Both the position numbers and the translations under genes were made by a program. Source: Malania oleifera (lineage: Eukaryota > Streptophyta > Magnoliopsida > Santalales > Ximeniaceae). From it: DNA of 64,000 bases. Location: assembly GCF_029873635.1 (NCBI RefSeq), contig NC_080425.1, forward strand, positions 40,861,390-40,925,389, written 5' to 3'. Below are positions 11,166 through 40,500 of the stretch, piece after piece (position 1 is the first letter of the stretch; the number at the start of each line of letters is the position of its first letter). The notes under the pieces are model-generated. The model was not told where the DNA came from, did not search any database, and saw only the letters and a program-made list of their open reading frames with translations.

Positions 11166-11213
11166 ATCAGAAGTCAATATATCGATAGGTTCCATAGGAA
11201 GCATACCAAATCC

Positions 11214-12055
11214 CTACTGCTGCTGATTCTGTTGCTGCTGCTGAGGATTTGGGGGCGGTTGCATGCCTAGACGAGGAGGACCAAAAACTAGAACGCCACC
11301 AGGTGGAGGAGGCATCCCTAGTCGAGGAGGAGGGGCTGGCATTCCTGGTCGCGGTGCAAGTGACGGTCCTCTCATCATTGGTGGTGGAGGGACCATTTAG
11401 CGCTGTCCAAATTGTGGCGGCACCTGGAACACAGGTGGTGCCCCACTTGGCCTTGCAGCCGCATACTTGGAGGGCCAGTAGGGGGTGGACCACGTGCCAT
11501 TGGTGGTGGAGCTTGCCCAGGCTGGCCAAGGAATGGAGGCATCTGCCCGGGTGGTCGGATCACTAGAGCAGGATAGGAAATGGGTGGCGCCGACACTTAA
11601 GGCACCGGAGGGCGAGAGATCTGTGGCTGCATCATGCTAGGCGTAGGCCCCCCAACGCCATGAATTGTCCTAGCCAAACCAGGCTGAACCTGAATCAATG
11701 GTGCAGTTGGAATCCCCCTCCCAGCAGCTCTCCCAATTCCTGGACCTGCCACTGCAGCAGCACCAGCAGCTTTGGCACGAGACTCATCCGGAGGGGGACG
11801 ACCTTCCACCGTCATAGAGATCACCTCTTCACCCCTTAGGAGAACCAAACCCAAGGTTCTACGATCCTCTCGTTCTTCATTCTTCTTACCCTTGGCCAGG
11901 GGGAGTTTCTGGAACTCCTCGCAGTCGCTAATGACAAGGTTCATGTGGCGGTCGAAGGCCATGAACTTGCCCACTAGTTGGCGGCCGTCCTGAATCGTGA
12001 CGCGCATACGGTAATTGATATATTGGAGCATCTTGGAGCTCTTGGACATCGACAT
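11214..12055 (-). pseudogene. SmB/B' snRNP-associated protein, pseudogene with intact Sm domain
   Basis: SmB is a core protein of the heptameric Sm ring around spliceosomal U1, U2, U4 and U5 snRNAs. The - strand start MSMSKSSKMLQYINYRMRV at 12055 matches the plant SmB N-terminus. Sm1 (FMAFDRHMNLV) and Sm2 (LVLLRGEEVISM) are present, followed by the RAAGRGIPTAP linker and the MMQPQISRPP proline-rich tail. The open frame ends after 152 codons at a TAA (11597-11599) where the family continues PPxPQLSAPP. The tail then reads on in the same frame, shifts frame near 11465, meets a second TAA at 11397-11399, and ends in the family's NPQQQQQ tail at 11214. No intron is visible, which would fit a retrocopy. 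A gene-capturing LTR retrotransposon sits 83 bp upstream of the ATG, so little of the original promoter remains. A truncated 152-residue Sm protein could still be made if transcribed. Confidence 0.85.
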
Positions 12056-12138
12056 TTTTGGAACGTATTGGGCTTGTTTTAGAGCAATGGAGAGAATGTG
12101 ATGGGGATAGCAGAAGAGTTAGGAGAGAGATGGAGTTT

Positions 12139-12891
12139 TGCTACGGGTCGAGAGAGAGGAAGGTCGGGGAGTCCGAGCAGACAACCAGAGAGAAGAGTTG
12201 GCTCAAGCAGGAGGCTATGAGCAGACGACCAGAAGGGAGATTACAAGACTCAAGCCAAGGGGGGGTGTCCGAGCAGACTAAGGGGCTCGGACGAATAGAT
12301 TGGCTCTTCAGCTGGGACGAATGGATGGCTTTACACAAAGGAGTTTTTCTTCGCTGAGGAGCTCGGATCTTTGTAAGTGGACCGAGTAGGCTGAGGCACT
12401 TTGCAGGGGGACTCGAGCAGAAGATGTCGAGCAGCTTGAGGGGCTCGGGCGGGACGTCTCTTCGTAGGACGAGCTCTTCATGGGCCGGGTCATCGTGTGC
12501 CAAGAGCGTTAATCACGTGGAAGCGGGGCTGGGCACTAGGTCGAAGTCTCTTGAGTCTTCAGCATCAATTTTACAGCTTTATTGTTGTCCAAGTGTAAAT
12601 GGGCCAAATGGAGGCCTAGTGTAGTAGAGCCCATAGGGCATTCCAAAGTAGTTAGTTACAAGTTGTTATGTATAAAGATGGGCCAATGGAAACAGGGGGT
12701 CAACTAGAAAATTGGGAATCTGTTTGTTTCTTTGTTTCTTTGGAGAGTGGCTCTCTCGAACCAGCCAACCTGCAGCTTCATTTCCATTTTTATTGCATTC
12801 AATAAATCTCCATTCAATCATTCATTCCATTCATTCCATTTCCTATTGAAATTCATCCAATCATACAACTCACACTAGCAAATTCATTACA
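12139..12891 (+). repeat. 5' LTR of the gene-capturing retrotransposon
   Basis: Direct copy of 17675-18428. Rich in gagcagac and ctcgagc motifs in its first half, AT-rich with cattcattccattcattcc repeats near its end. It ends ttcattaca directly before the PBS. Confidence 0.92.
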
Positions 12892-12893
12892 AT

Positions 12894-12905
12894 TGGTATC
12901 AGAGC
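12894..12905 (+). other. Primer-binding site (tRNA-iMet type)
   Basis: tggtatcagagc, two bases after the LTR end. It matches the 3' end complement of plant initiator methionine tRNA, the usual primer for plant LTR retrotransposons. Confidence 0.9.
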
Positions 12906-12921
12906 ACAAACTCCTACCACC

Positions 12922-13341
12922 ATGGGAGAGGGAACTCGCATAAACCAGATTTTGGAATGCATTGCCGCACGTCAAATCACTATTACTCAACAATTGGAAG
13001 CTCTTTCTGAGAGTGTGAAGTGGCTCGGCAAGCAAAAGATTAGCCAAGAAAGCCTTGGAGGGACATTTGGCAATGATTTCAAACATCAACACTATGAGGG
13101 CCACGATGGGGAGCAACACAATACAGAGAGAGCATACCCCTTAGCTCCAGCTGCAGCAGACTCTAATATGTCATCCAAAAAGGTGACTGAAATGGGTGGA
13201 CCTAATGGTAAGAGAAATTTGCATCAACAAAAATCCAGTTGCAGTCCCAAACTCACTCAGCCGATCAAGAAGGGATTAAGCATGTCCAATCCAACAAGAA
13301 AGTGTCTAGATCCAGTGTTTCTTTGCATGCGCAACAAGACA
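12922..13341 (+). mobile_element. gag-like leader of the gene-capturing element
   Basis: The open frame starts MGEGTRINQILECIAARQ shortly after the PBS and has a coiled-coil-like, glutamine-rich start (residues 1-45), as in plant Ty3/gypsy gag N-termini. It runs without a break into the RNF10-like segment, so the first product of this element would be a gag/host-protein fusion. The middle part (residues 50-140) is not recognised; it may be degenerate gag or part of a captured gene. Confidence 0.55.
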
Positions 13342-13500
13342 AGAGCTCCTTCTCCTCCTCCAAGAAGGCTGCAGAAAATTAATTTTTACAACAAAGATTT
13401 ATTCCTTCAAGCAAACTACAAATTTGTTGTGATCAACTCGGGAGACTATACACCTGAATCGATGGATCCAGACAATATGTTCCTGTGGGATGATGATACT
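13342..13500 (+). pseudogene. Captured fragment of an RNF10-like RING protein
   Basis: Within the open frame that begins at 12922, residues 141-192 read RAPSPPPRRLQKINF then YNKDLFLQANYKFVV and ESMDPD. This is the conserved segment just before the RING finger in plant relatives of RNF10 E3 ligases. The RING cysteines that should follow are not here, so only a short exon-scale piece was taken. The downstream stretch DDTLVSHHPSKVDW at about 13490-13560 was not assigned. Confidence 0.7.
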
Positions 13501-13617
13501 TTAGTGTCACACCATCCATCTAAAGTAGATTGGATTTGTCACAATGTGGAGCAATAGGAAGAGGATGAATTAGAAATGTGGAAGGATAATGCAATTAGTC
13601 TGGGTTCTGACGAGCAG

Positions 13618-13794
13618 GTTATTTCCGTGGCTGAGAGAGTTGCTCATGAGCGTTGTGAACCTTCACCTGGTTTGGATGGTTCTCTCATTGGTTATCAAGT
13701 TCGTCTTGATAGTGCAAGGAATGAGAAAACGAAGCTTCTATTCTGCACAACAAACATTCTTCTGTGGAAAATTGCAACTAACAGCAACTTGCCT
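13618..13794 (+). pseudogene. Captured fragment of a DExH7-like RNA helicase, first piece
   Basis: Reads VISVAERVAHERCEPSPG, GYQVRLDSARNEKTKL and LLFCTTNILL. These match helicase motif Ia (ISVAERVA) and the motif Ib region (TTGILL-type) of plant DExH7/DHX57-like DEAH-box helicases. It stops at the nested solo LTR; the following part of the same helicase resumes on the other side of that LTR at 16402. Its presence inside LTRs and the lack of introns point to capture from mRNA. Confidence 0.82.
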
Positions 13795-14015
13795 TGTAAA
13801 GACCCGAAAATTTAAAAAAGATTAAAATAATTTAGAAAAAATAATAATAAATAAAACAACAGATAAATGAATAAAAGGAATAACGTGGGAAAAGAGAAAA
13901 AAAAATTAAAAATAAAGAAATTAAATTAAATTAAGATAAATTAAATAATTAAATAACTAGTTGTTAAATTAAATATTATTGTATTGGATTTATAAAAAAA
14001 AATAATTAAAATAAG

Positions 14016-14046
<31 letters not shown>

Positions 14047-16396
14047 AATAAGTTAATATGTATATATATATATATATATATGTATATAAAGTTACTGACA
14101 GAATGAAGATAAGAAGAAGAAAGAAGAAGGAAGAAGAAGAAAGAAGAAAGAAGAAAGAAGAAAGAAGAAGAACTTGGAGCAGAGCTGCACGCCCCTCCCC
14201 CCTGTGAATATTTTTCCTGCGTGCCAGCCACTCCGTCTCCGTCTCTCTCCTTCTCTCAATTACTCGGCGAGTTTGCTACGGATCGGGAAACGGAAGCTGC
14301 CGTTGGAATCTTGGTTCCGCTGCCGACATTTCTATTAGGGCAGATTTTTCATGGGAACGGTTTAGGCACTGCTCTTGGGGAAAGGTAGTTTTTCCTCATT
14401 TTCTCAATTTTGCCGTTAATATGTGGTTAAATCAACGAACGGACACCATCACGGGGTCCTAGTTGTCGTCATCGTCATTTTGACGTATGTAATTTTCCAA
14501 TTGGGGTTTTTTAGACCCTACTCCAAAGCGAGAGTGGGATTTGGAAAATTTGGCAATTTGGCTAAATTTAAAGGTATATTTATTTATTTAGGAATTATGA
14601 CCCTAGGAAATATTTAAAAAATATTTTATTTAAGAATAATTTATTGGAATTAGGAATTTAATTTTAGGGTTCGAGTGAGGGCCGCAGGTATTTTTTGGAG
14701 TCCCTGTTAGCGTAGTTCAAGAAACCAGGTAAGGGGAAAAATATATATTAAATCAGAATTTTTATGAATTTAATGAAAAAATAAATTGTGTTATATGTAC
14801 GTGTATATGTTTCGGTATGGGTAAAATGCCAATTGTTTAAATTATATTTCTTTCGAATTTAAGGTTGTTTATTAGATATATATATGTGAAAATGAACTGA
14901 TGAAAGTGAAAAAATATTTTCAGGATAATTAAGTAAGAAATGAAAGGTATTTTTAGTATATAAATATTAAAAGTTTGTTGGCTTATTTTACAGGCAATAT
15001 ATGAATTTTAATGTTAAATTGTGTGGCATGAGATTCTGTGCAAATATATGTTAAATGTATGAGATGCAGGCTAAGTAAGTAAAACAATGAAAATAAAATA
15101 TGATATGGACAATGTTGCCTGTGTATATTAAATGCAACCATGTAAATGTAAGACAGCTGAAAATGAGCCATGTTAGCAGATCTAGCACACTTCTGTGTAG
15201 ACTAACTGATGACAGCTAAAAGGAGTTGTGTTAGCAGATCTAGCACGTTTTTACGTAGACTAACTGATGATGGCTAAAGACCATCTGTAGTACGAAGTAA
15301 TGAAATGAAATGTTATGCAATAAAATGACGATGAAAAGGCAATGAAATGAAATGACAAAGGTAAATGATGTAAATGGGAAAAGTCACTTAAAGTGAAACG
15401 AATGCAAAGTTAAGTTATGAATAGGAATGAATGTGCATGAATGTATAATGACAGAAAAGAATGATGTATTATGATAATAGAAGTATGTATGTATGTAGAA
15501 CATGTTATGATTGGGCGAGGCATACCCTTCACCTGAGGGCTTGCTGAGTAAGGCAAGTGCACTAGTAGCTTCAGATGTGGCAGTAGCTACATAACATACT
15601 AGGGCAGAGGGAACCTACTTGTATGGGCGGGTAGGATTCCCTATCCTTAGGGCCTTTGCCGGTAAACTATTGTTGAACTGTGTGAGTACGAGATTAATCT
15701 ACCACTTGATGGCATACTGAGTAAGGTGAGTGCTCTAATATGTTTTAATTGTGACCTTAGGGTTACCTAAGTATCAGAGCAGAGGGGTGCTACTTGTATG
15801 GGCGGGTAATCACCCCTATCCTTGGGTAATCTCGTGGGTTAAATATTTGCATGTGATTGTTTAGGTTTAGAAAATGATTTCAATATTATATGATGATTTG
15901 CAAATCAAATAAAAATGATATCTATTTATCTCATGTTGGCCACACGCTGTTCTAATATGTATATTTCTTCCCTTACTGAGATGTGTCTCACCCGAATATG
16001 ATTATTTCTTTTTCAGGACATTCTCGAGGTCGAGCTTAGGGAGCTCGAGGGTATTTAGCATTTTGAGGGACTTAAAGAGAAAGGGTATATTTTCAAAACA
16101 CTTTGGGGGAATGTAAATATTTATGTTTTAAGTTTTTATGTTTTAATCCTGTTGAGAACAGGATGGTTGTGAAAATACTGAAATGCTTTTGGAGATGTAT
16201 GTATATATGGAAATGCAGGTGTTGGATGATTTAATATGGATTATAGTTAGAATTAGTAAACTCTGGTATTATGTTATATGGAGATTATGATTATGTTTTC
16301 TGCTGCGTATGTTATGTTAATTATGGAATATGATTTATTAGAGATTTTATCAGGTTTAACACGTCGGACCCGGGTTTAAGGGTTCGGGGCGTTACA
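13795..16396 (+). mobile_element. Solo LTR of a Tekay-like Ty3/gypsy element, nested in the captured helicase
   Basis: Begins TGTAAAGACCCG and ends GGGCGTTACA, flanked on both sides by the perfect 5-bp target duplication TGCCT (13790-13794 and 16397-16401). No coding region lies inside, so 2602 bp of LTR remain after LTR-LTR recombination. It contains poly-AT stretches, a GAA-rich purine tract (14100-14170), a duplicated 65-bp gttagcagatctagcac unit (15173-15290) and two diverged copies of a cttgtatgggcgggta block (15618-15635; 15790-15810). It also carries the ccttactgagatgtgtctc...tttcag block (15971-16016) shared with other LTRs in this window. Confidence 0.92.
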
Positions 16397-16401
16397 TGCC
16401 T

Positions 16402-17180
16402 AGTGTTACTTATGTCATTGTTGATGAAGTGCATGAGCGGTCTCTTTTGGGTGATTCTCTTCTTATTGTTTTGAAGAATTTGGTTGAGAAACAATCTGTT
16501 GATGGCACTTAGAAGTTGAAAGTTATCCTTATGTCGGCAACAGTTGATTCAAACTTATTTTCAAGATATTTTGGTCATTGCCCAGTTACTACTCAAGGCC
16601 GAACACATCCTGTTACAACAAACTTCCTGGAGGATACATATCAAAGCCTCAACTACCATCTTGCTTCAGATTCTCTAACATCTATACCAAATGCGTCATT
16701 CATGAAAGCAAAGCTTCCAAAAGGTCCTATGAGCCACCAGAGGGGGAAGAAAAATCTCATCTTATCTTCTTGGGGTGACGAATCTCTGCTCTCTGACAAT
16801 TATATTAATCCATACTATATTCCTAAGAATTATTAATCATTCAGCGAGCAAACTTGTCTTAATTTGAAAAGATTGAACAAAGGTGTGATTGATTATGATC
16901 TTTTTGAAGGCTTGGTTTGCCATATTGATGAAACTGATGCCGAAGGTGCCATACTCATATTTTTTCCTCGAGTCTCAAAAATTAATGTGTTGCTTGATAG
17001 ACTAACTGCTACATATCAATTTGTTGGGGTATATTCTAATTAGATTCTTCCTTTACCGTCACCCATAGCTGTTGCAGATCAGAAAAAAGTGTTTCTACGA
17101 ACCCCTCATGACATACAAAAGGTTATAATTGCAACTAATATTTCAAAGACTAGCATAACAATGGATGAGACGGGTTTTAT
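16402..17180 (+). pseudogene. Captured fragment of a DExH7-like RNA helicase, second piece
   Basis: Carries the helicase II box as VIVDEVHERSLLGD, motif III as KVILMSATVDSNLFSRYFG, then QGRTHPVTT, the KKNLILSSWGDESLLS segment, LICHIDE-like and AILIF segments, and the region around motif V as KVIIATNISKTSITMDE. Order and spacing follow plant DExH7-like helicases over roughly 250 residues with no intron, although the host genes of this family are multi-exonic. It is broken (several breaks) and ends abruptly where a PPR-like reading begins. It lies directly after the TGCCT copy of the nested LTR. Confidence 0.85.
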
Positions 17181-17190
17181 CTCCTCAAAT

Positions 17191-17500
17191 CTCACTTACA
17201 ATAACCCCATGGGTCTCTACACACAGACTCGCATGCTTGAGAAAATCCCTAACGTGCTATCAGGGATGAAGGAGAATGGATTCTCTCCTAACAATTGTAG
17301 CTACAGAATTTGTAGTAACTCGTATGGGATAGGATCTGATATTGAGAATGGAGGAGTTTCTAGAAGAAATGGATAGTGAACCTGACATCTCCATGGACTA
17401 GAGCACTTCCACCATAGTGGCCAATTTCTACATTAAAGCAAGTATTAATGCGAAAGCAATTGCAACCTTGAAGAAAGCTGAGGATGAAGAAGAGAAGGTG
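17191..17500 (+). pseudogene. Captured fragment of a PPR protein
   Basis: Reads LTYNNPMGLYTQTRMLEKIP, NVLSGMKENGFSPNNCSYRI and, in a neighbouring frame, ISMD and VANFYIKA. This is the signature of plant P-class pentatricopeptide repeats (YNxxMxLY, PDVLxEMKxxGxxPDxxSYRICINSYG, VANFYIKAG). About two to three repeats are represented and broken. It follows the helicase piece directly, so at least two unrelated genes are fused. The 3' part to 17640 (lysine/glutamate-rich, EAWKWYHKWKEKFPHLV) was not identified. Confidence 0.75.
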
Positions 17501-17674
17501 GCTTCGCTATTATCTGAGCTCCGGTGCGAAGAGGTCAGAGCAGGGTAAGTTTTGAAGAAAGCTTCTATTGAAGTTGCTGAGGGACAGGAGAAGGAGGAAG
17601 CGTGGAAGTGGTATCATAAGTGGAAGGAGAAGTTTCCTCACCTTGTGGGCAAGGTGCTTAAAAGGGGAGGGTAT

Positions 17675-18428
17675 TGCTACGGGTCGAGATAAAGGAAGGT
17701 CGGGGAGTCCGAGCAGACATCCAAAGAGGAGAATTGGCTCAGGCAAGAGGCTACGAGCAGACGACCAGAAAAGAGATTACAAGACTCAAGCCAGGGGGGG
17801 AGTCCGAGCAGACTAAGGGGCTCGGACGAACAGATCGGCTCTTCAACTGGGACGAACGGACGACTTTACACAAAGGAGTTATTCTTCGCTGAGGAGCTCG
17901 AATCTTTGTACATGGACCGAGTAGGCTGAGGCCCTTCACAGGGGGACTCGAGCAGAAGATGTCGAGCAGCTTGAGGGGCTCGGGTGGGATGTCTCTTCGC
18001 AGGACGAGCTCTTTATGGGCCAGGTCATCGTGGGCCAAGAGTGTTAATCACGTGGAAGCGGGGCTAGGCACTAGGTCGAAGTCTCTTGAGTCTTCAGCAT
18101 CAATTTTACAGCTTTATTGTTGTTCAAGTGTAAATCGGCCAAATGGAGGCCAAGTGTAGTAGAGCCCATAGGGCATTCCAAAGTAGTTAGTTACAAGTTG
18201 TTATGTATAAAGCTAGGGGGCCAGCGAAATAAGGGGTCAGTTAAAAAATTGGGAATCTGTTTGTTTCTTTGTTTCTTTGGAGAGTGGCTCTCTCGAACCA
18301 GCCAACCTGTAGCTTCATTTCCATTTTTATTGCATTCAGTAAATCTCCATTCAATCATTCATTCCATTCATTCCATTTCCTGTTGAAATTTGTCTAATCA
18401 TACAGCTCACACTAGCAGATTCACTGCA
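17675..18428 (+). repeat. 3' LTR of the gene-capturing retrotransposon
   Basis: Direct copy of 12139-12891, preceded by the purine tract at 17660-17671. It starts TGCTACGGG and ends ttcactgca. Differences from the 5' copy are scattered, mostly transitions. Confidence 0.92.
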
Positions 18429-21400: not shown

Positions 21401-21693
21401 AGGATTCTTTTTAAGCCTATGGTACAAAGGTTTGTATATTGTTCTTAAATCTTTGTAAAAATCAAATATATATTTTAAACATCCTAAAAATCTTTGTAAT
21501 TGTTTTTTCATCTTTGATTTCATCAAGAAACATACCTGCAAATTCAATACTCCTATTGATAGGAATAATTGTTCCATTTTCAATATTATAACGAAGAAAT
21601 CTTATTTTGGTTTGGATTAAGATCGTTTTTTTTGCAGAGACTATAAGACTATTATTTTTAATAATTTTTTTAAACTATTCTAAATGCTTAAAA
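18429..21693 (-). mobile_element. Endogenous caulimovirid (plant pararetrovirus) fossil, interrupted
   Basis: On the - strand near 21374-21583 the RT thumb/connection reads LQRFLGCLKYIFDFYKDLR and YKPLYHRLKKNPP, a hallmark of Caulimoviridae. Further 3' (about 20930-21350) RNase H-like motifs follow (ASDLGYGGIL, FFLRVDYKFAKYVL, IFARW, FDFDIEPIK). A serine/proline-rich reading (SPLTIANHFSPLAGNF) continues to about 20550, and a further piece may lie at 18429-18611 across the solo LTR. The copy is broken (many breaks), incomplete and old. Its upstream end is cut by the 5' LTR of the next element at 21694. Assignment of 18429-18611 and 20550-20900 to the virus is less sure than the RT/RNase H part. 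Confidence 0.75.
18617..20544 (-). mobile_element. SIRE-like copia solo LTR
   Basis: On the + strand it starts TGTTAACTTTG and ends GGTCAACA, flanked by the perfect 5-bp target duplication ATTGT (18612-18616 and 20545-20549). Read on the - strand it begins TGTTGACCTTATAGGTC with GGTTTTGATTATGACAAA close behind, the style of SIRE/Maximus LTR starts. It is 1928 bp with no coding region. It includes five spaced copies of an imperfect palindrome like ttcggtcgcccgaa (about 19835-20180). Confidence 0.88.
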
Positions 21694-23672
21694 TGTAATG
21701 ACCCAAAAAATGTATATACGATTAAAGCATAATAATAATAAAATAAAAATGATCATTAAGTTAATATTAACACAAAGATATTTCTCTGTTAGGATATTTG
21801 ATTCCATGATTAATGTCTAAGAAAGACCTTGTCTAAACGAGTGCACAGAAACCATTGCGAGTTAATCACTCCCTAGAGGTTGGTCTGATCAAAATAGAAT
21901 TTTATAAGACAAACAGAGGTAGAGGATGTAATGATTTAAAAAGTAAATTAATTAATTAAGTAAATTAATTAATTTAGTAAATTAATTAAAAATTAATTAA
22001 ATGGAGTGTCGGTAAGCACTCCCATTTTTTTTTCCCCCACATGTATCCGCATCTGCATCCCATACCTCCCATCAAAAGCACATCTCATGCTCATTCATTT
22101 ATTTAAAAAAAAAATTAAAATTTCACCCCCTCCCCACACTTTTATAAATTACATTTTCTTTTCCAAAATTTCCCTATAAATAGGAAACTCTCAACCTTCA
22201 TTTTTCATAAAAAATTTTCAAAGGAAGAGAATGATTAATGAGTGAAAAAATTAATAATAGAGAGAGAATTTTTGTTATACTTAAAATTCTCACTCACCCA
22301 CTATTTCCAATCACATTTTCAAAGATATTCATTGTGACCGTCTCACAATGTTAAGTAAGAGTAAGTAAATTTTGATTATGTTATTATTTTTCATAAAAAA
22401 TTTTTAAGTTTATTTTTACGCATATTTAATTATACCAGTTTTATCTTTAATATACTTATGTTTATTTTTGAATTAAGAAATATTTTAAACCCTTCGGGTA
22501 TTTTACAGTATTAATTTCTATTTAAGAAAATATTTTTAACACGAAAATCGTGTGACGTGAGTTTATTTTTACATTACATATTTCACGAAAATATGAAAAA
22601 AGATGATATAAGTCTATTTTTATGTTGCGTATTTCACAAAAATAAGAGGAAAAATAAAATTTTCATGATATAATTTTTATTACATAAATTATATAATAAG
22701 ATGTTTTCAAAACCCTTTATGGTTCAGAAGATACATAAAATTACAAATGCTCGGTACCATAGCCAAAAGTTTAAACGGATTTAAGTGCACCCGCACCATT
22801 TACAAAGTGGTTATATATGGCAGTGGATTTCTCTTAAATACATACTTGGTTCCGGGTCAGGTCTTAATAGGAAAAATCTCACTTAATGATGATGTACGTT
22901 GACTTATTTTGGCCGGTCAGCCAATTAAGTCCAATTTTCGAACCACACAACCTTATCATGGGGGTAGACATAACTTACATATAACAGGTCTAAGGGTGAT
23001 TTTTACAGTATATGTATATACATATTTAATTATGTATACAGAACTATTGATGATTTGAAAAAATATATATATATTTATGTGAACAGGGTCATTTTTGTGC
23101 TTAAATGATAATCTAAATTGAAGGAAACATATAACGACAAGTATACATATATATATAATTTAGTATTATAGTTATATTTTTAAAGTGAACAAGTTCAATT
23201 TAACAGTTGCAGTGTATAGTTATAAAATTTTATTGCTATAATTGATATTAAAAGTTTTATGCAAAAAATTTTAAATTTATATTTTTTTTAAATGCAATAT
23301 TGAAGTTTCAATATTAAATGTTATTTTATAAAACTATAATATTATGAAAACTCATTTTGGCCACATTCTAATAATAATCTCATTCCCAATCATTATTTTA
23401 CATTTCAGATAATTCTAAAGAGTGTACCAAAAATCTGGTATAACAAGTGCATGGGTGGGAATAGTGAAAGCAGAGTAGAATAAAAATTTAGCATAAATAT
23501 AATTTTAGAATAAATTTGTGTATTTTAGAATTTTAAGAATGTTAATTTTAATAGTCGAAATATATATATGTAATAAAACTAATTAGTGTTATGGTAATAA
23601 AAATAATTTAGATTTATTTGCTTCTACTGAAAAATTTATATTTAGGAATCCACTCGGATTTGGGTCCTTACA
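21694..23672 (+). repeat. 5' LTR, about 1.98 kb, of the non-autonomous element
   Basis: Starts TGTAATGACCC and ends GTCCTTACA before the PBS. Closely related along its length to 27302-29225 and to the solo LTR at 37838-40296. It lacks the ttactgag part of the shared LTR block that its 3' partner retains. Confidence 0.9.
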
Positions 23673-27284: not shown

Positions 27285-27301
27285 TTATGAGGAGAGGAGA
27301 A

Positions 27302-28749
27302 TGTAATGAGCCCAAAAATGTATATACGATCAAAGCATAATAATAATAATAATATAAAAATAAAAATGGTCATTAAGTTAATATTAATACGAAGATGTTT
27401 CTCTGTTAGAATCTTGATTTCATGATTGATGTCTAAGAAAGACCTTGTCTAAGCGAGTACTCAGAGACCATTGCGGTTTAGTCGCTTCCTAGAGGCTGGC
27501 CAGGTTAAAATAAAATTTCATAAGATAAAAAGAATAGACACAAAGGATGTAATGATTTCAAAAAAAGTTAATTAATTAAGTAAATTAATTAAAACCTAAT
27601 TAAATGGGTGTATCGGCAAGCACTCTCATTTTTTTTTGTTTCCCCCAAATATATCCCCATCCTTATCCCATACCTCTCCTCCCAAGCTCATCTCATGTCC
27701 ATTCATTTATTTTTAAAAAATTATAATTTCACTATTCTCCCCACACTTAAATAAATTTCATTTTCTTCCCTAAAATTTTCCTATAAATAGAAAGTTTTCA
27801 ACATTCTTTTTTCACAAAAAAAAAAAAAATCCAAAGGAAGAGAAGGATTAGTGAGTGAAATAATTAGTGGTGGACGGAGAATTTTTGTTATACTTAAAAT
27901 TCTCACTCACCGATTCTTTTCGATCTCATTTTCAGAGATATTCGTTGTGACCGTCTCACAAGGTTAAGTAAGAGTAAGTAGATTTTGATTATGTTAATTA
28001 TTTTTCATAAAATTTTCTTGAATTTATTTTTATGCATATTTAATTATACCAGTTTTATCTTTAATATACTTGCATTTATTTTTGAGTTAAGAAATGTTCT
28101 AAACCCCTCAAGTATTTTACAGTATTAATTTATATTCAAGAAAATATTTTAAACACGAAAATCGTGTGACATGAGTTTATTTTTACATTGCATATGTCAC
28201 AAAAATACAAGTAAAGATGATATGAGTTTATTTTTACATTGTGTATTTCACAAAAATATGAGTAAAAATAAAATATTTATAATCTTATTTTAATTGCATA
28301 AATTATATAATAAGATGTTTTCAAAACCCCTTATGGCTCAGGGGATATAGAAAATTACAAATGTTCGGTATCGTAACCTAAAGTTTAAACGAATCAGAAT
28401 GCACCCACACTGTTTAAAGAGTGGTTATATATGGTAGTGAATTTCTCTTGAGTGCACACCTGATTCCGGACCAGTACTTTAATAGGGAAAATCTCACTTA
28501 ATGATGATGTACGCTGACTTAGTTTGACCAGTCAGCCAGTTAAATCCAGTCTTCGAACCACACAACTTTGTCATAAAGGTAAACATGACTTACGGATAAC
28601 ATGCCTAAAGGTAGTTTTTACAGTATATGTATATACATATTTAATTATGTGTACAGAGCTATTGATGATTTGAAGGAAAAATATATGTTTATGTGAATAG
28701 AGTCATTTTTGTGCCTAAATGATAATCTGAAGGAAACGTATAAGAAAAA

Positions 28750-28797
<48 letters not shown>

Positions 28798-29225
28798 GTA
28801 TTATAGTTACATTTTTAAAATGAACAAGTTCAATTTAACAATTGCGGTGTATAGTTATAAAATTTCACTACTATAGTTGATGTTAAAAGTTTTATGCAAT
28901 TTTTTTAAAATTTTCATTTATTTTAAATGCAGTCTTGAAGTTTCAATATTAAATGTTATTTTACGAAATTATATTATTGTGAAAACTCATTTTGACCACA
29001 CACTAATAATAATCTTATTTACTTACTGAGCATCGTCTCACCCCAATCATTATTTTACATTTCAGATAATTATGAAGAGTGTACCAGAAATCTGTCGTAA
29101 CAAGTGTATGAGCAGGAATAAAAATAGTAGAGTAAAATAAAAATTTAGCATAATATAATTTTAGAATATGTTTGCGTATTTTAGAATTTTAAGAATGTTA
29201 ATTTTAATAGTCGAAATATATATAT
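27302..29225 (+). repeat. 3' LTR of the non-autonomous element, right end missing
   Basis: Starts TGTAATGAGCCC after the purine tract and follows the 5' LTR to tcgaaatatatatat near 29225. The last roughly 95 bp present in the 5' copy are replaced by unrelated Ty3/gypsy sequence. It carries the acttactgagcatcgtctcacccc...tttcag block at 29021-29065 and an (AT)n microsatellite at about 28750-28790. Confidence 0.88.
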
Positions 29226-34015: not shown

Positions 34016-37000
34016 ATCTCCCCTCCTTATAAAAATTTCGTCCTCGAAATTTACTAATTGTTACCATTCACATCCTTAACTCACAATCCATCTCTACCGA
34101 AGAGTCGGTAGCCACCCACATAGTGGCCCTATCCCAAGTTTATTAAATACCCTCACTTATGGTGGAGGAATACCGTGGTTACACACAATGTCTCGGAAGA
34201 TTACAATATCATACAAAACTCTTTTAGAGACTATCCATATACAAAATCATAAACAACTAACAAACTAAACAAACCTATCTTACCTAACCTACAAATAAAA
34301 CTAACACTTACCTATGTTGCCTACTAATCTGTTGGGGGTTAGACCTTTCTGAAAAGTTATGGGTATTTCTGACATATTTTTGTTTCTAACTCCCAAGAAG
34401 CCTCCTCTACTACATGTTTCTACCACAGCACTTTCACCAACGGTATGTCTTTAGTACGCAGTTCTTGTATTTTCCGATCTAAAATCTGAATTGGTACCTC
34501 CTCGTATACCAGAGCATCCCCGATCTCTAAAGGCTCATAACTTATCACGTGTGAAAGATCTAGCATGTACTTTCTCAACACTGATACGTGGAAAACATTA
34601 TGAACTCTAGACAACACTGGGGTAACACTACTTGATAGGCAACTGGACCTATCCTTTCTAGGGTCTCGAATGGTCCAATGTACCTAGGACTCAACTTACC
34701 TTTCTTCCCAAACCTCATCACCCCTTTCATCGAAGCAATCCTCACAAATATCATATCATCGATCTCGAACTCTAGCTCCCATCGGCAAGTATCCACATAA
34801 CTCTTTTGCCGACTCTATATTGCTTTAATCCTCCCCTTGATAAGCTCGATCTTTGCAAAGGTCTGCTGAACTAATTTCGGCCCCAAAATCTGCCGCTCAC
34901 CTACCTCATCCCAGTACAATAGATATTGGCACCGACGACCATACAAAGCCTCATATCGTGCCATCTCGATCTGGCCTGATAACTGTTATTATATGCAAAA
35001 TCAACGAGCGGTAGATACCAGATCCAACTATCCCCAAGATCCAGCACACATGCCCGCAGCATATCCTCTAGGATCTGAATGGTCCTCTCAGACTGCCCAT
35101 CCTTCTGCAGGTGAAATCCAATACTGAAAGTGAGTTGAGATCCCAAGGCGTCCTGCAAACTCTTTCAGAATCGAGAAGTGAACTGTGGATCTCGATAAAA
35201 AATAATAGAAACTGAGATGCCATGGAGTCGTACAATTTCATGTACATAAAGCTCTGCCAGCCTATTCATAGAGTAACTGACTTTGATCTGGACGAAGTGT
35301 GTAGTCTTCATCAGTCAATCAAAATAATAACCCAGATAGCATTCTGTCCATGCACCGCCAAAGGCAACCCTGATACAAAGTCCATCGAGATATATTATCA
35401 CTTCCACTTAGGGATGTCAAGTGGCTGAAGTGGTCCCGCTGGCCTTTGGTGCTCTACTTTACCTGCTGACATGTCATGCACTATTCCACGAATCGGGCAA
35501 TCTCTCTCTTCATGTTACTCCACCATAATGATTCTCGCAAATCTTTATACATCTTCGTACTTCCAGGATGAACAATATAGAGAGAGTGATGAGTCTCCTC
35601 CAGAATTGTCTTTTTAATCCCCGCGTCGTTAGGCACACACAATCTGGCTTGAAATCTGAGAACTCCATCCTCTGAAACATTGAAGTCTGGTTGATGCTAA
35701 CTCCAAACTTTCTCTACAATTTCCATTAACTTTACTTCTTTCCTCTGAGTGCCTTTAATTTTCTCCTGTAAAGTTGGCTGAATAATCAGATTGGCCATGA
35801 TCGCCTATGGATCCCCATCCACTATCTCTACATCCAACCTCTCAAGGTCCATCCTGATCTGATGTTGTACAACAACTGCTAAAACTAATGCACCCACCGA
35901 CTTACAACTCAAAGCATCAGCTACCACATTAGCCTTTCCTAGGTGGTAACTAATGGTACAGTCATAGGCCTTAATCAACTGAAGCCATCTCCTCTGCCTT
36001 ATATTCAATTCCTTTTAGGTGAAAAAGTATTTAAGACTCTTATGATCAGTAAAGATTTCGCACTTTTCATTGTATAGGTAGTGCCTTCATATCTTTAACA
36101 CACAAACTACTGCTGCCAGTTCCATGTCGTGCATCGGATAATTCTTCTCATACTCCTTGAGTTGGTGAAAAGCGTACACAATAACCTTTCCCTGCTGCAT
36201 CAAGACACACCCAAGTCCTTTCTGAGATGTGTCACTGTAAATCACAAAACTACCAACCCCTGATGGAATGGTCAATACTAGGGTTGTGACTAGTCGTTGC
36301 TTCAATTCCTGAAAAATCTGCTCACACTCCCCAATCCACTCAAACCTATTGTTCTTTCTCGTAAGCCGTGTCAAAAGACTTGGCAACCTGGAGAAACTTT
36401 TGATGAACTGATGATAGTACCCTACCAAACCCAAGAAACTTCTAATCTCATGCATATTTTTCGGTCTCACCCAATCAACTATTGCCTCTACTTTGCTCGG
36501 GTCCACTTAAATTCTTTCCCTGGACACTACATGTCCCGGAAAATGCCACTTGTTCCAGCTAGAACTCGCATTTCTTGAATTTAGCAAATAATCTCTTCTC
36601 TCTGAGTATCTGAAGTACCAGCCTTAAATGAGCTTCATGCTCCGCAGGACTCTTCGAATAAACTAGGATTTCATCGATGAACACCACCACGAATTGATCT
36701 AAGTACTTATGGAACACCCTGTTTATCAGGTCCATAAATGTTGTAGGCGCATTCGTTAAACTGAACAGCATAACCAGAAATTCATAATGGTCATATCAAG
36801 TTTGAAAAGTTGTCTTCGATACATCCTCTGATTTCACCTTCAATTGATGATACCAGGATCGCAGATCGACCTTAGAGAAAACCTATGTGCCCTTTAGTTG
36901 GTCAAACAGATCATCAATTTGGGATAACGAGTACTTATTCTTCATTGTTACTTTATTAATTTCCTGGTAGTCGATGCACATCTTTATCGACCCATCCTTT

Positions 37001-37576
37001 TTCTTTACGAACAACACCAGTGTTCTCCAGGGTGATACGCTCGATTTGATAAAACCCTTATCCAGAAGTTCCTGTAGCTGCTCCTTTAGCTCTTTTAGTT
37101 CAGCTGGAGCCATTCGATATGGAGCCTTAGAAATTGGCGCCGTCCTTGGAGTTAACTCAATGGCGAATTCCACCTCACGATCCAGAGGCAATCTTGGTAA
37201 GTCCTCAGGGAACACATATGAGAACTCCCTTATTACTAAGATATCCTCCAGCTTCAGTCCTTCCTTTGGTGCTTTTTCACACATGCCAGATACCCTTGAC
37301 AACCCTTTAGAAGTAACCTTCTGGCCTGCATCGCTGAAAGGATCTATGGTGCAGAGCGCACACACGACCCGACAAATTGAAACTCCTGTTTTCCAGGAGG
37401 TCTGAACACACTGCCTTCTTGTGGTAGTCAATATTCGCATAGCTGGATGCTAGCCAATCCATCCCCAGAATAATGTCGTTTCCATGCATATAAAAAACAT
37501 TTAAGCTAGCAAGCAACCTTATTCCTTGAATTTCCATTAGGTGATCCCTAATCACCTTGCTACACACCACTGCTGA

Positions 37577-40500
37577 TGTAACGACCTCAAATTCTTAATA
37601 TCAAATGTAACATAATGAATGGAAAAGTCAACCCGAACCCGTGGGTAACGGGGACACCTGTAAATCACATCGGAAACCTAAGCAGCAATAAGTATAAAAT
37701 CTCAAACATCCAACCATAAGACATAATACCGGAGTTTACTGTATCATCAAAATACTGTTCCTATATACAACCTCCAAAAATTCAAAATAACACTAGGATC
37801 ATACAACAAAAATTTCCTGATCCTAGTTGAACGCTTATGCGATGATCTAAAAATATATATACGATTAAAGTACAATAATAATAAAATAATAAAAATGGTC
37901 ATTAAGTTAATATCAATACATAAGTGTTTTTTTTTATAGGATCCTTGATTCCATGTTTGATGCCTAAGAAAGACCTTGTCTAAGCGAGTGCTCAGAGACC
38001 ATTGCGGCTCAGTCGCTCCCTGGAGGTCGGCTGGTCAAAATGGAATTTCATAAGATAAACAGGATAGACATTGTTTGTACACGTAAATAAGTATATATAC
38101 ATAAAATAGTATTTTGACAGACATAATTTGTAGAAATACATAATAAGATGATAATAATATAGGTATCATATGTGGGGCCCACAAGACTATGTGGGTTCCA
38201 CATGAGTCCTGGAGCCACAAGACACTATTTATATACGTAAACAAGTACATAAATAATGTTTTGACTGATATAATTTGTAAAAATATATGATAAAATAATA
38301 ATAATATAGGTATCCTATGCGGGACCCATAAGACTGTGTGAGGCCCACATGAGTCCCGAAGCCGTATGGAGGTTTACACGAGTCTCAAAGTTATGTAGGA
38401 TGCATAAAATCGTATGAGAGTTATTCGAGTTACGTAGGATCCATTTGGGTCTCGAAATTGTGTTGGGCCCACAAGACCATGTGGGGTCCACATGAGTTTT
38501 CAAAATTTAAATTTAATTCTTATTCAAAAAATAAAATAAACAAATACTAAAAATAGTTTAAAAGTAATAACAATGATAATAATGATTAAGAAAAATAATA
38601 AAATAATTAATTAACTAATTAATTAATTAGTTAGGTAAGTAATTAATTAAAAAATTTATGGTAGCAAGCACTCCCACATGGCCTCCATCCCCATCCCATA
38701 CTCAACCCACACCTTACCCATCCCTTGCCCATTCTTTAATTTTAAAAAAATTATAATTTCACCAATCTCCCCACACTTTTACAAATTCCATTTATTTCCC
38801 AAAATTTTCCTATAAATAAGGAGCTCTCAACCTTCATTTTTCACAACAATTTTCTAAGGAAGAGAAGGATTAGTGAGTGAAAGAAATTATGGTGGAGAGA
38901 GAATTTTTGAGTAAGTTCTCAATCACCCGCTCTTTTCGATCTCATTTCTTAGAAATAGTTACAGTGTTCATAAGGAATAAGGTAAGTAAATTTTGTTATG
39001 TTAGTTTTTTTTATTTAAAATTCATACCCGAGTTTATTTTATAAGTAAATTTCAATTATGTTAATTAAAAATTTCCATGAGTTTTTTTTTACGCATATTT
39101 AATTATACAAGTTCTATTTTTAATATACTTGCATTTATTTTTGGGTTAAGAAATATACTAATCCCCTCGGGTAAATTTTCAGCATTTCTTTCTATTCAAA
39201 AATGAAATTATATATATTTTTAACACAAAAATTGTGTGGCATGAGTTTATTTCTACGTTGCATTTTTTTTATAAAAATATGAGTAAAGATGAGATTTTCA
39301 CGATATTATTTTAAATTGCCTAAATTATAATAAGATGATTTTAAAATCCCTTATGGCAACAAAAGTTCAAAGTTACAGATGCTTGGTACCATAGCTTAAA
39401 GTTTAAACGGATCAGAGTGCACCCACACACTGTTTACAGAGTGGTTATTTATGTTAGTGGATTTCTCCTGAGTGCACACCTGGTTCCGGACCAGGACTTA
39501 ATAAGGAAAATTTCACTTAAAGTTTACGTACGTTGATTTAGTTTGGTCGGCCAGCCAGCTAAGTCCAGTTTTCGGACCGCACAACCCAATCATGGGGGTA
39601 AACATGACTTACGGCAAACAGGCATAAGGGTGGTTTTTACAATATATGTTTATACATAGTTAATTACGTGTACAAAGTTACTGATAATTTGAAGGAAAAG
39701 TGTAAGTTTACATGAAAATGATCATTCTAGTGCTTAAATGACAATCTAAAGAAAACGTATAAGGAAAAGTATATGTATGTTTATCATTAAATATTTATAC
39801 AGTTTTAAAGTTAAAAGTTTAATTTAACAGTTATAGTATATGATTATAAAATTTTACTGTTGTAATTAATGGTAAAAGTTTTATGTAGTAAATTTTAAAT
39901 TTATATTTATTCTAAAAGCAGTTTTGAAGTTATAGTATTAAATATTGTTTTACGAAATTTTTTAAAAACTCATTTTGGCCACACACTAATAATAATCTTA
40001 TTTACTTACTGAGCGTCGTCTCACTCCAATCATATTTTTATTTCAGATGATTTTGAAGAGCATGTCGGAAATCAGACTTAGTAAGCATGCGGATGGGGAT
40101 AGAAAAATAAAGATTGATTAGAAATATTAGTATGATGTCAGATATTTATGTTTGTGTAATTTTTCTTTTTTGAAATAAATGATTGTAATATGGATAATTA
40201 TCACTCTGGTGTAATAAAAATTGAGTTTATTTGCTTCCGTTGTAAATCACTAGTAAAAAGTTAATATCTCAGACCCCTCGGGGTTGGGGTGTTACAGCTT
40301 ACCCTTCTAGTAAGGAAGCTCCAATCACTCAACGACAGCCCTGACCCGCCGGTCTCTCTAGATTTCCTGAAAAATTAATTAATGTTGGGGGTGAGACACA
40401 TCTCAGTAAGGGAAAATAAACTAACTATAGCTGTGCGGCAACATGAATATTTAATGTAATTATATATATACAATACATTTCTTATATCTGTAGACATTTA

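Follow-up and report, generated by a model that had tools for sequence, protein, structure and literature searches.

We report that the 64,000-nucleotide stretch of Malania oleifera DNA analysed here (C9:40861390-40925389 of a 1.494-Gb assembly in 510 contigs; "the window", whose positions are used wherever no contig is named) contains, at 12139-18428, a non-autonomous long terminal repeat (LTR) retroelement with segments of host genes between its LTRs. The element belongs to a clan which has LTR, gag-start and chromodomain-tail modules in common and carries at least seven cargo arrangements, made from about eleven host genes. Very probably it is a decayed derivative of a Ty3/gypsy chromovirus that captured its cargo serially from spliced mRNA, open reading frames being mostly retained. 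A preliminary description of the same DNA, drawn from the letters alone, had counted at least three captured genes, which is correct for the window element and too low for the clan. The parts of the element are:

12139-12891, + strand: 5' LTR, 753 bp, TG...CA, 92.4% identical to the 3' LTR
12894-12905, + strand: primer binding site TGGTATCAGAGC, adjoining the 5' LTR
12922-13128, + strand: N-terminal piece of gag, 5' of the capsid domain (blastp and tblastn matches to gag of L021, L022 and L041)
13183-13494, + strand: RNF10 segment; parent at C11:45212692-45213125, start at the exact start of a parental exon
13338-13339, + strand: RNF10 junction at which 116 bp of parental exon (GT...AG) are gone, by alignment to the parent
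13495-13794, + strand: DExH-box helicase (DHX) segment, part 1; donor exon C9:46330494-46330597 for 13616-13719 only
13795-16396, + strand: nested 2.6-kb insertion TGTAAAGACCC...GGCGTTACA, TG...CA, with duplication TGCCT (13790-13794 and 16397-16401)
16397-17160, + strand: DExH-box helicase segment, part 2, five parental exons joined
17161-17490, + strand: PPR segment; parent-like gene at C1:136082042-136082372, 88%
17491-17578, + strand: interval between the PPR segment and the chromodomain end
17579-17659, + strand: C-terminal end of the pol chromodomain, matching the tails of L021, L022 and L041
17660-17674, + strand: polypurine tract AAAAGGGGAGGGTAT, adjoining the 3' LTR
17675-18428, + strand: 3' LTR, 754 bp, TG...CA

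The LTR pair with its primer binding site and purine tract, recognized already in the preliminary description, holds on inspection: the repeats end in TG and CA, and the two sites lie against them at 12894 and 17674. We take the primer binding site to be of the initiator tRNA-Met type. The Kimura two-parameter distance between the LTRs is 0.081; if substitutions accumulate at 1.3e-8 to 2.5e-9 per site per year, this corresponds to roughly 3 to 16 million years. Between the LTRs, the gag start is followed by RNF10, helicase, PPR, a short piece Z and the chromodomain end. The first four had been read correctly, and each of the three host segments now matches a located host gene by DNA and by protein. 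Likewise, the first frame (211 codons, 12922-13557) does fuse the gag start to RNF10. Capsid, protease, reverse transcriptase, RNase H and integrase were not found in the element by frame reading and Pfam; no reverse transcriptase or integrase was seen by eye among its listed frames, in agreement with the first account, and comparison of four interior frames with Pfam returned PPR alone (PPR_2, 3.6e-6, under the gathering score). What that account overlooked is the in-frame run through to the end of pol and the existence of relatives with pol domains.

The donors of the window segments sit apart, RNF10 at C11:45.21 Mb, the helicase at C9:46.33-46.36 Mb and the PPR-like gene at C1:136.08 Mb, so the fragments are not neighbours outside the LTRs; the search for intron-containing parents thus ended at three separate loci. 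Helicase part 2 joins five parental exons without their four introns (donor exons at C9:46351696-46357473, covering 16449-17125) and the RNF10 segment begins exactly at an exon start, which supports the earlier proposal of capture through spliced RNA. Compared with the PDB, the helicase piece finds DHX29 (1.1e-7), and part 2 contains the motifs DEVHERS and SAT. A donor exon for 13495-13615 was looked for in L051 and not found. The helicase had been described as free of introns: its exons are indeed joined, but the insertion at 13795-16396, which splits it, had escaped notice. Similarly, the supposed RNF10-like RING-protein segment is RNF10 by its donor on C11, but it ends before the RING, as far as we place that domain correctly in RNF10; the RING stretch is kept in the sister copy L020. 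The putative preceding RNF10 exon probably occupies 13129-13182.

The same cargo recurs in the genome. Searches at the DNA level, made with each interior half, score the best candidates only, so all counts of loci are lower bounds. At least 11 further loci carry both halves nearly complete with 86-93% identity (group A: C13:29.06, C10:3.02, C6:107.47, C2:106.06, C9:60.68, C10:89.94, C9:4.71, C7:42.21, C11:90.79, C8:13.94 and C3:114.24 Mb), the copies at C8, C10:3 and C3 being interrupted. This recurrence shows that the arrangement in the window is not due to chance. At a further locus, C9:81.09 Mb, the second half is accompanied by part of the first. In two copies the fused frames are long: 427 codons in L013, covering five helicase exons, which are read in the parental frame and without the four introns, and then PPR and chromodomain end, and 296 codons in L014, joining gag, RNF10 and helicase. 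Exact 5-bp target duplications were seen by eye in five of ten LTR pairs (L013, L014, L016, L017 and L042); in L015 the match is 4 of 5 bases, L045 has none, and the ends are unclear in L010 and L021. The first 462 bases of the 5' LTR have at least 46 genome matches, partial ones counted.

Eleven copies of each half, the window included, were aligned (L036 contributes an incomplete first half; neither the second half of L011, which is interrupted, nor the C3:114 Mb copy was included). The 116-bp RNF10 loss is present in all ten group A copies aligned there, and a 1-bp deletion upstream restores the frame; the approximately 35 codons between the two deletions read outside the RNF10 frame and are open in the translated copies L014 and L010. 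Because of the GT...AG ends, a cryptic splice is the likeliest reading of the gap, which may alternatively be a deletion with 2-bp overlap. A parental intron kept in the sister group B was rejected as explanation, since the parental frame runs through the gap as coding sequence. Comparison of 139 RNF10 sites with the parent gave 7 derived sites common to groups A and B, 3 found in A only and 7 in B only. Independent captures in the two groups were rejected on the 7 shared sites, none being changed differently; judged from these sites, both groups would most simply descend from one RNF10 capture.

Beyond group A, cargo in the clan includes pieces of NADH dehydrogenase, NUP188, trehalose-phosphate synthase (TPS) and heavy-metal ATPase genes. 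Group B (L015, L020) has the order gag, STAR3-like zinc finger, RNF10, NDB (an NADH dehydrogenase), a gene X, helicase, PPR and tail, with six host segments; it occupies at least nine near-complete places, L015 counted, and one partial. STAR3-like pieces are joined with NUP188 pieces in L042, with TPS pieces in L045 and L058, and with a VARLMGL-motif protein (TRM-like) in L059. In L055-L057 a heavy-metal ATPase piece lies inside the TPS piece (Pfam on L056). L040 carries a FAB1-like kinase piece, as does L039 by reading, and L043 a NUP188-type piece by reading frames. On the minus strand of L043, segment Z adjoins this cargo; closer to the tail, a pol frame of copia-like appearance was noted by eye, which would fit a copia insertion. 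Some of these names come from tools (HMA and VARLMGL from Pfam, yeast-type NADH oxidoreductase for the NDB piece); DExH7, HMA5, LONGIFOLIA/TRM and NDB are partly our assumption. The STAR3-like piece presumably resembles STOP1. The name itself lends weak support to a STOP1-type origin, because the annotated M. oleifera protein which bears it, P0014 (zinc finger STAR3-like), is itself such an element, with 98.6% identity to L042 over 140 residues. Another annotated protein, P0004 (external NAD(P)H oxidoreductase B3-like), is an RNF10-NDB fusion.

Donors were located for six segments in all (RNF10, DHX, PPR, NDB, X and ATPase). The NDB parent exons lie at C5:35.10 Mb, three introns having been removed in group B, and the parent of X at C3:56.15 Mb. 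The ATPase search matched 7 places, among them the likely donor at C2:144.41 Mb, where the match stops at an apparent exon end.

Cargoes and LTRs have also been exchanged. L060 (C9:79.68 Mb) mixes cargo from several groups, its 299-codon frame containing TPS, helicase, PPR, ATPase and NUP188 pieces, that is, five host genes; its Pfam scores are under the gathering cut-offs, and the NUP188 piece was recognized by a 92.5% DNA match to L042. Group A cargo is found with two LTR types: the LTRs of the window, L013, L014, L016 and L017, like that of L015, match L021 at 80-87% over 434-638 bp, and those of L032 and L033, of the other type, match it over 42-53 bp only. At the L036 locus (C9:81091734-81093808), group A cargo has matches to gag and to the STAR3-like piece on its upstream side; the locus resembles a recombinant between two groups.

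Relatives with pol domains, which might mobilize such a family, are present in the same genome. By Pfam, L021 has gag, protease, reverse transcriptase, RNase H and the integrase zinc-binding domain, and L022 a chromodomain in its tail (Chromo, 1.4e-9); L023 and L041 are pol relatives by reading frames judged by eye. Cargo members share with them the gag start, the tail and partly the LTR. The search for copies and for an autonomous partner, suggested with the first description, gave copies with the same cargo and, on the side of the partner, pol relatives that are partly decayed.

We propose the following course. The family keeps LTRs, primer site, about the first 70 gag codons, about the last 27 chromodomain codons and the purine tract, while pieces of spliced host mRNA have taken the place of all that lay between gag start and chromodomain end. 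Capsid, reverse transcriptase and integrase would be supplied in trans by related elements. Capture was serial, most likely by template switching between element RNA and co-packaged cellular mRNAs, the switches occurring at short stretches of common sequence. Later, cargo recombined among clan members and LTR types were exchanged. The surviving chimeras mostly keep a single open frame from gag start to native stop; a filter behind this might lie, for instance, in escape from nonsense-mediated decay or in a requirement for translation. Template switching onto co-packaged spliced mRNAs would explain intron loss, sense orientation and mosaic cargo together. Mobilization in trans, template switching and the open-frame filter are the parts of this explanation that we infer.

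Evidence on the frame comes from the junctions between neighbouring segments, compared in 30 sequences (halves counted apart) and 15 pairings. TPS reference peptides were cargo frames picked by Pfam; STAR3-like junctions, which lack an independent frame, and the ATPase-NUP188 junction of L060 stood outside the scoring. Among the 13 types of junction between neighbours, ten have most or all copies in frame, two are tied and one is out of frame; at an expectation of one third, P is 1.7e-3, or 1.7e-5 with the ties counted. In-frame counts are 7/10 for gag-RNF10 (one of the ten, from group B, being an indirect junction), 8/9 for RNF10-DHX, 13/14 for DHX-PPR, 12/12 for PPR-chromodomain, 2/2 for NDB-X, 3/3 each for TPS-ATPase and ATPase-TPS, and 1/1 each for TPS-DHX, PPR-ATPase and TPS-chromodomain. 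The two remaining pairings, of segments that are not neighbours, gave gag-NUP188 in frame and gag-TPS out.

Several observations weigh against the course proposed above. The junctions RNF10-NDB and X-DHX are tied (1/2 in frame each), NUP188-chromodomain in L042 is out of frame (0/1), and the STAR3-like part of L059 is not in the frame of its TRM-like part. Protein-level purifying selection, tested in three ways, was not detected, the power on internal branches being limited. Private changes give omega 1.04 and 1.00, which is the neutral expectation for nonsynonymous (N) to synonymous (S) changes, and changes found in at least two copies give 0.86 and 0.95, all non-significant; tree-consistent (clean) internal branches have N=20 and S=11 without a stop (p=0.19). 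Stem changes relative to the donors, summed over PPR, three helicase exons and three NDB exons, amount to N=42 and S=12, again without a stop (group-specific rows, N=4 and S=1, stand outside the sum). Stop changes found in two or three copies number nine, and they were excluded as parallel events (CAG to TAG or TGG to TAG); eight of them contradict the tree and have the look of parallel C-to-T or G-to-A change, while the one in L030 and L033 nearly fits it. The pol-bearing relatives are partly decayed with partly broken frames, so that a working partner is assumed. Junction overlaps, read by eye (7 nt at X-DHX, about 4 nt at NDB-X), are short and come from two junctions only, without a shuffled control. 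Finally, the window copy has no target-site duplication, its flanks being AGTTT and GGCTC by eye.

Part of this evidence would suit the view that the frame agreement reflects chance and selective reading, in an otherwise ordinary non-autonomous family with several captured genes. Amino-acid change looks neutral. Moreover, the junctions were neither preregistered nor drawn at random from the genome, and they are partly related by descent: a junction such as DHX-PPR is inherited, so counts over copies are not independent. Counted by distinct junction type, the agreement in 10 of 13 cases argues against chance, as does the mutual compensation of the 116-bp and 1-bp losses in RNF10. Also, the 85 stem and clean internal changes include zero stops (P 0.013 at an expected 5%). 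We therefore consider chance agreement doubtful, although it is the best placed of the alternatives. That openness of the frame is kept without constraint on amino acids is suggestive only.

A second alternative is that the cargo was built in a resident element by events at the DNA level, such as ectopic recombination or filler-DNA repair. Short overlaps at junctions occur in end joining too, and the exchange of LTRs could be DNA recombination. On the other hand, the helicase and NDB pieces have lost their introns exactly, and a parental exon end is crossed by the ATPase piece, from which it follows that these donors were mRNA or cDNA. Besides, every identified cargo piece is in sense orientation, antisense pieces having had no systematic search. 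DNA-level assembly of the cargo is thus unlikely.

Still less probable, in our opinion, is that the chimeras are domesticated host genes whose fusion proteins have a cellular function. Proteins P0004 and P0014 of the public annotation do have the make-up of chimeras, and some copies contain long open frames (427 codons in L036 as in L013, 548 in L056). Nevertheless, purifying selection was undetected, most aligned copies carry stops or frameshifts, and LTRs with target duplications mark the copies as mobile. As for two unrelated solo LTRs around ordinary pseudogenes, a case which the missing duplication of the window copy might suggest, the interior recurs at the 11 other loci and the LTR-cargo-LTR unit is flanked by exact 5-bp duplications at four group A copies (L013, L014, L016, L017), which leaves this view with hardly any credit.

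The window copy itself is dead: a stop at 13555-13557 is followed by further stops and frameshifts. The nested insertion is specific to it among the copies compared, the site being uninterrupted in 10 of 10 checked. It carries two short internal duplications, has a partial relative in L044 (82%) and is probably a solo LTR of another family.

Elsewhere in the window, an intronless coding sequence on the minus strand at 11167-12118, which we take to be SmB-like (snRNP B), directly adjoins the 5' LTR; its C-terminal part is disrupted and it is possibly a retrocopy. A pair of 1.9-kb direct repeats (21692-23569 and 27300-29225) shows 82% identity and has partial copies near 37849-40060, beside which the frame 36883-37440 looks by eye like a gypsy reverse transcriptase.

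Reports of plant LTR elements capturing genes usually concern single fragments, Bs1 being the textbook multi-gene exception. In a 2026 review (PMC13317346), maize Bs1 is an LTR element that carries segments from three host genes, and template switching is described in Veju and BARE elements. Bs1, as presented there, resembles the window element in being an LTR element with several host segments fused in a chimeric frame. Unlike Bs1, the elements here form a clan with at least seven arrangements, about eleven genes, six segments in one group, and exchange of cargo and LTRs. Surveys in maize (PMC2774510) and in rice and sorghum (PMC3726574) found LTR elements with host gene fragments inside, as here; of the 425 such elements in the maize survey none contained, under its conditions, more than one standard nuclear gene, whereas most cargo elements read here carry several. 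With the Ty3/gypsy chromoviruses L021, L022, L023 and L041 the window element shares gag start, chromodomain end, primer site and partly the LTR, and it differs from them in that capsid, protease, reverse transcriptase, RNase H and integrase were not found in it. TRIM and LARD elements are non-autonomous LTR elements that need enzymes in trans and have little or no coding sequence; the clan would share this dependence, the long fused host-derived frame being its own. Pack-MULEs and Helitrons, which are DNA transposons, capture genomic DNA and shuffle gene fragments; the clan shuffles gene fragments as well, with spliced RNA as the donor. Our literature search, with most subscription journals outside its scope, returned no report of a comparable clan.

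Structure, amplification, intron loss, six donors, recombined cargo and frame agreement can be counted as demonstrated. Several arrangements are multi-copy, and since cargo copies, pol relatives and at least six donors are present in the same genome, two questions become testable: by what route cellular mRNAs enter LTR elements, and whether a captured sequence needs an open frame to spread. Chimeric elements already stand as ordinary genes in public annotation (P0004, P0014). More tentatively, and at somewhat less than even chances, the clan may be a system of in-frame exon shuffling, in which mRNAs are serially joined, cargo is exchanged, and unbroken frames are kept while amino acids drift. 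If so, the open-frame check of the cell, and not protein function, would decide which chimeras spread, and dozens of ready-made multi-domain fusion genes would be left in the genome. The clan is an unusually productive natural gene-shuffling system, whose pieces are mostly in the same reading frame.

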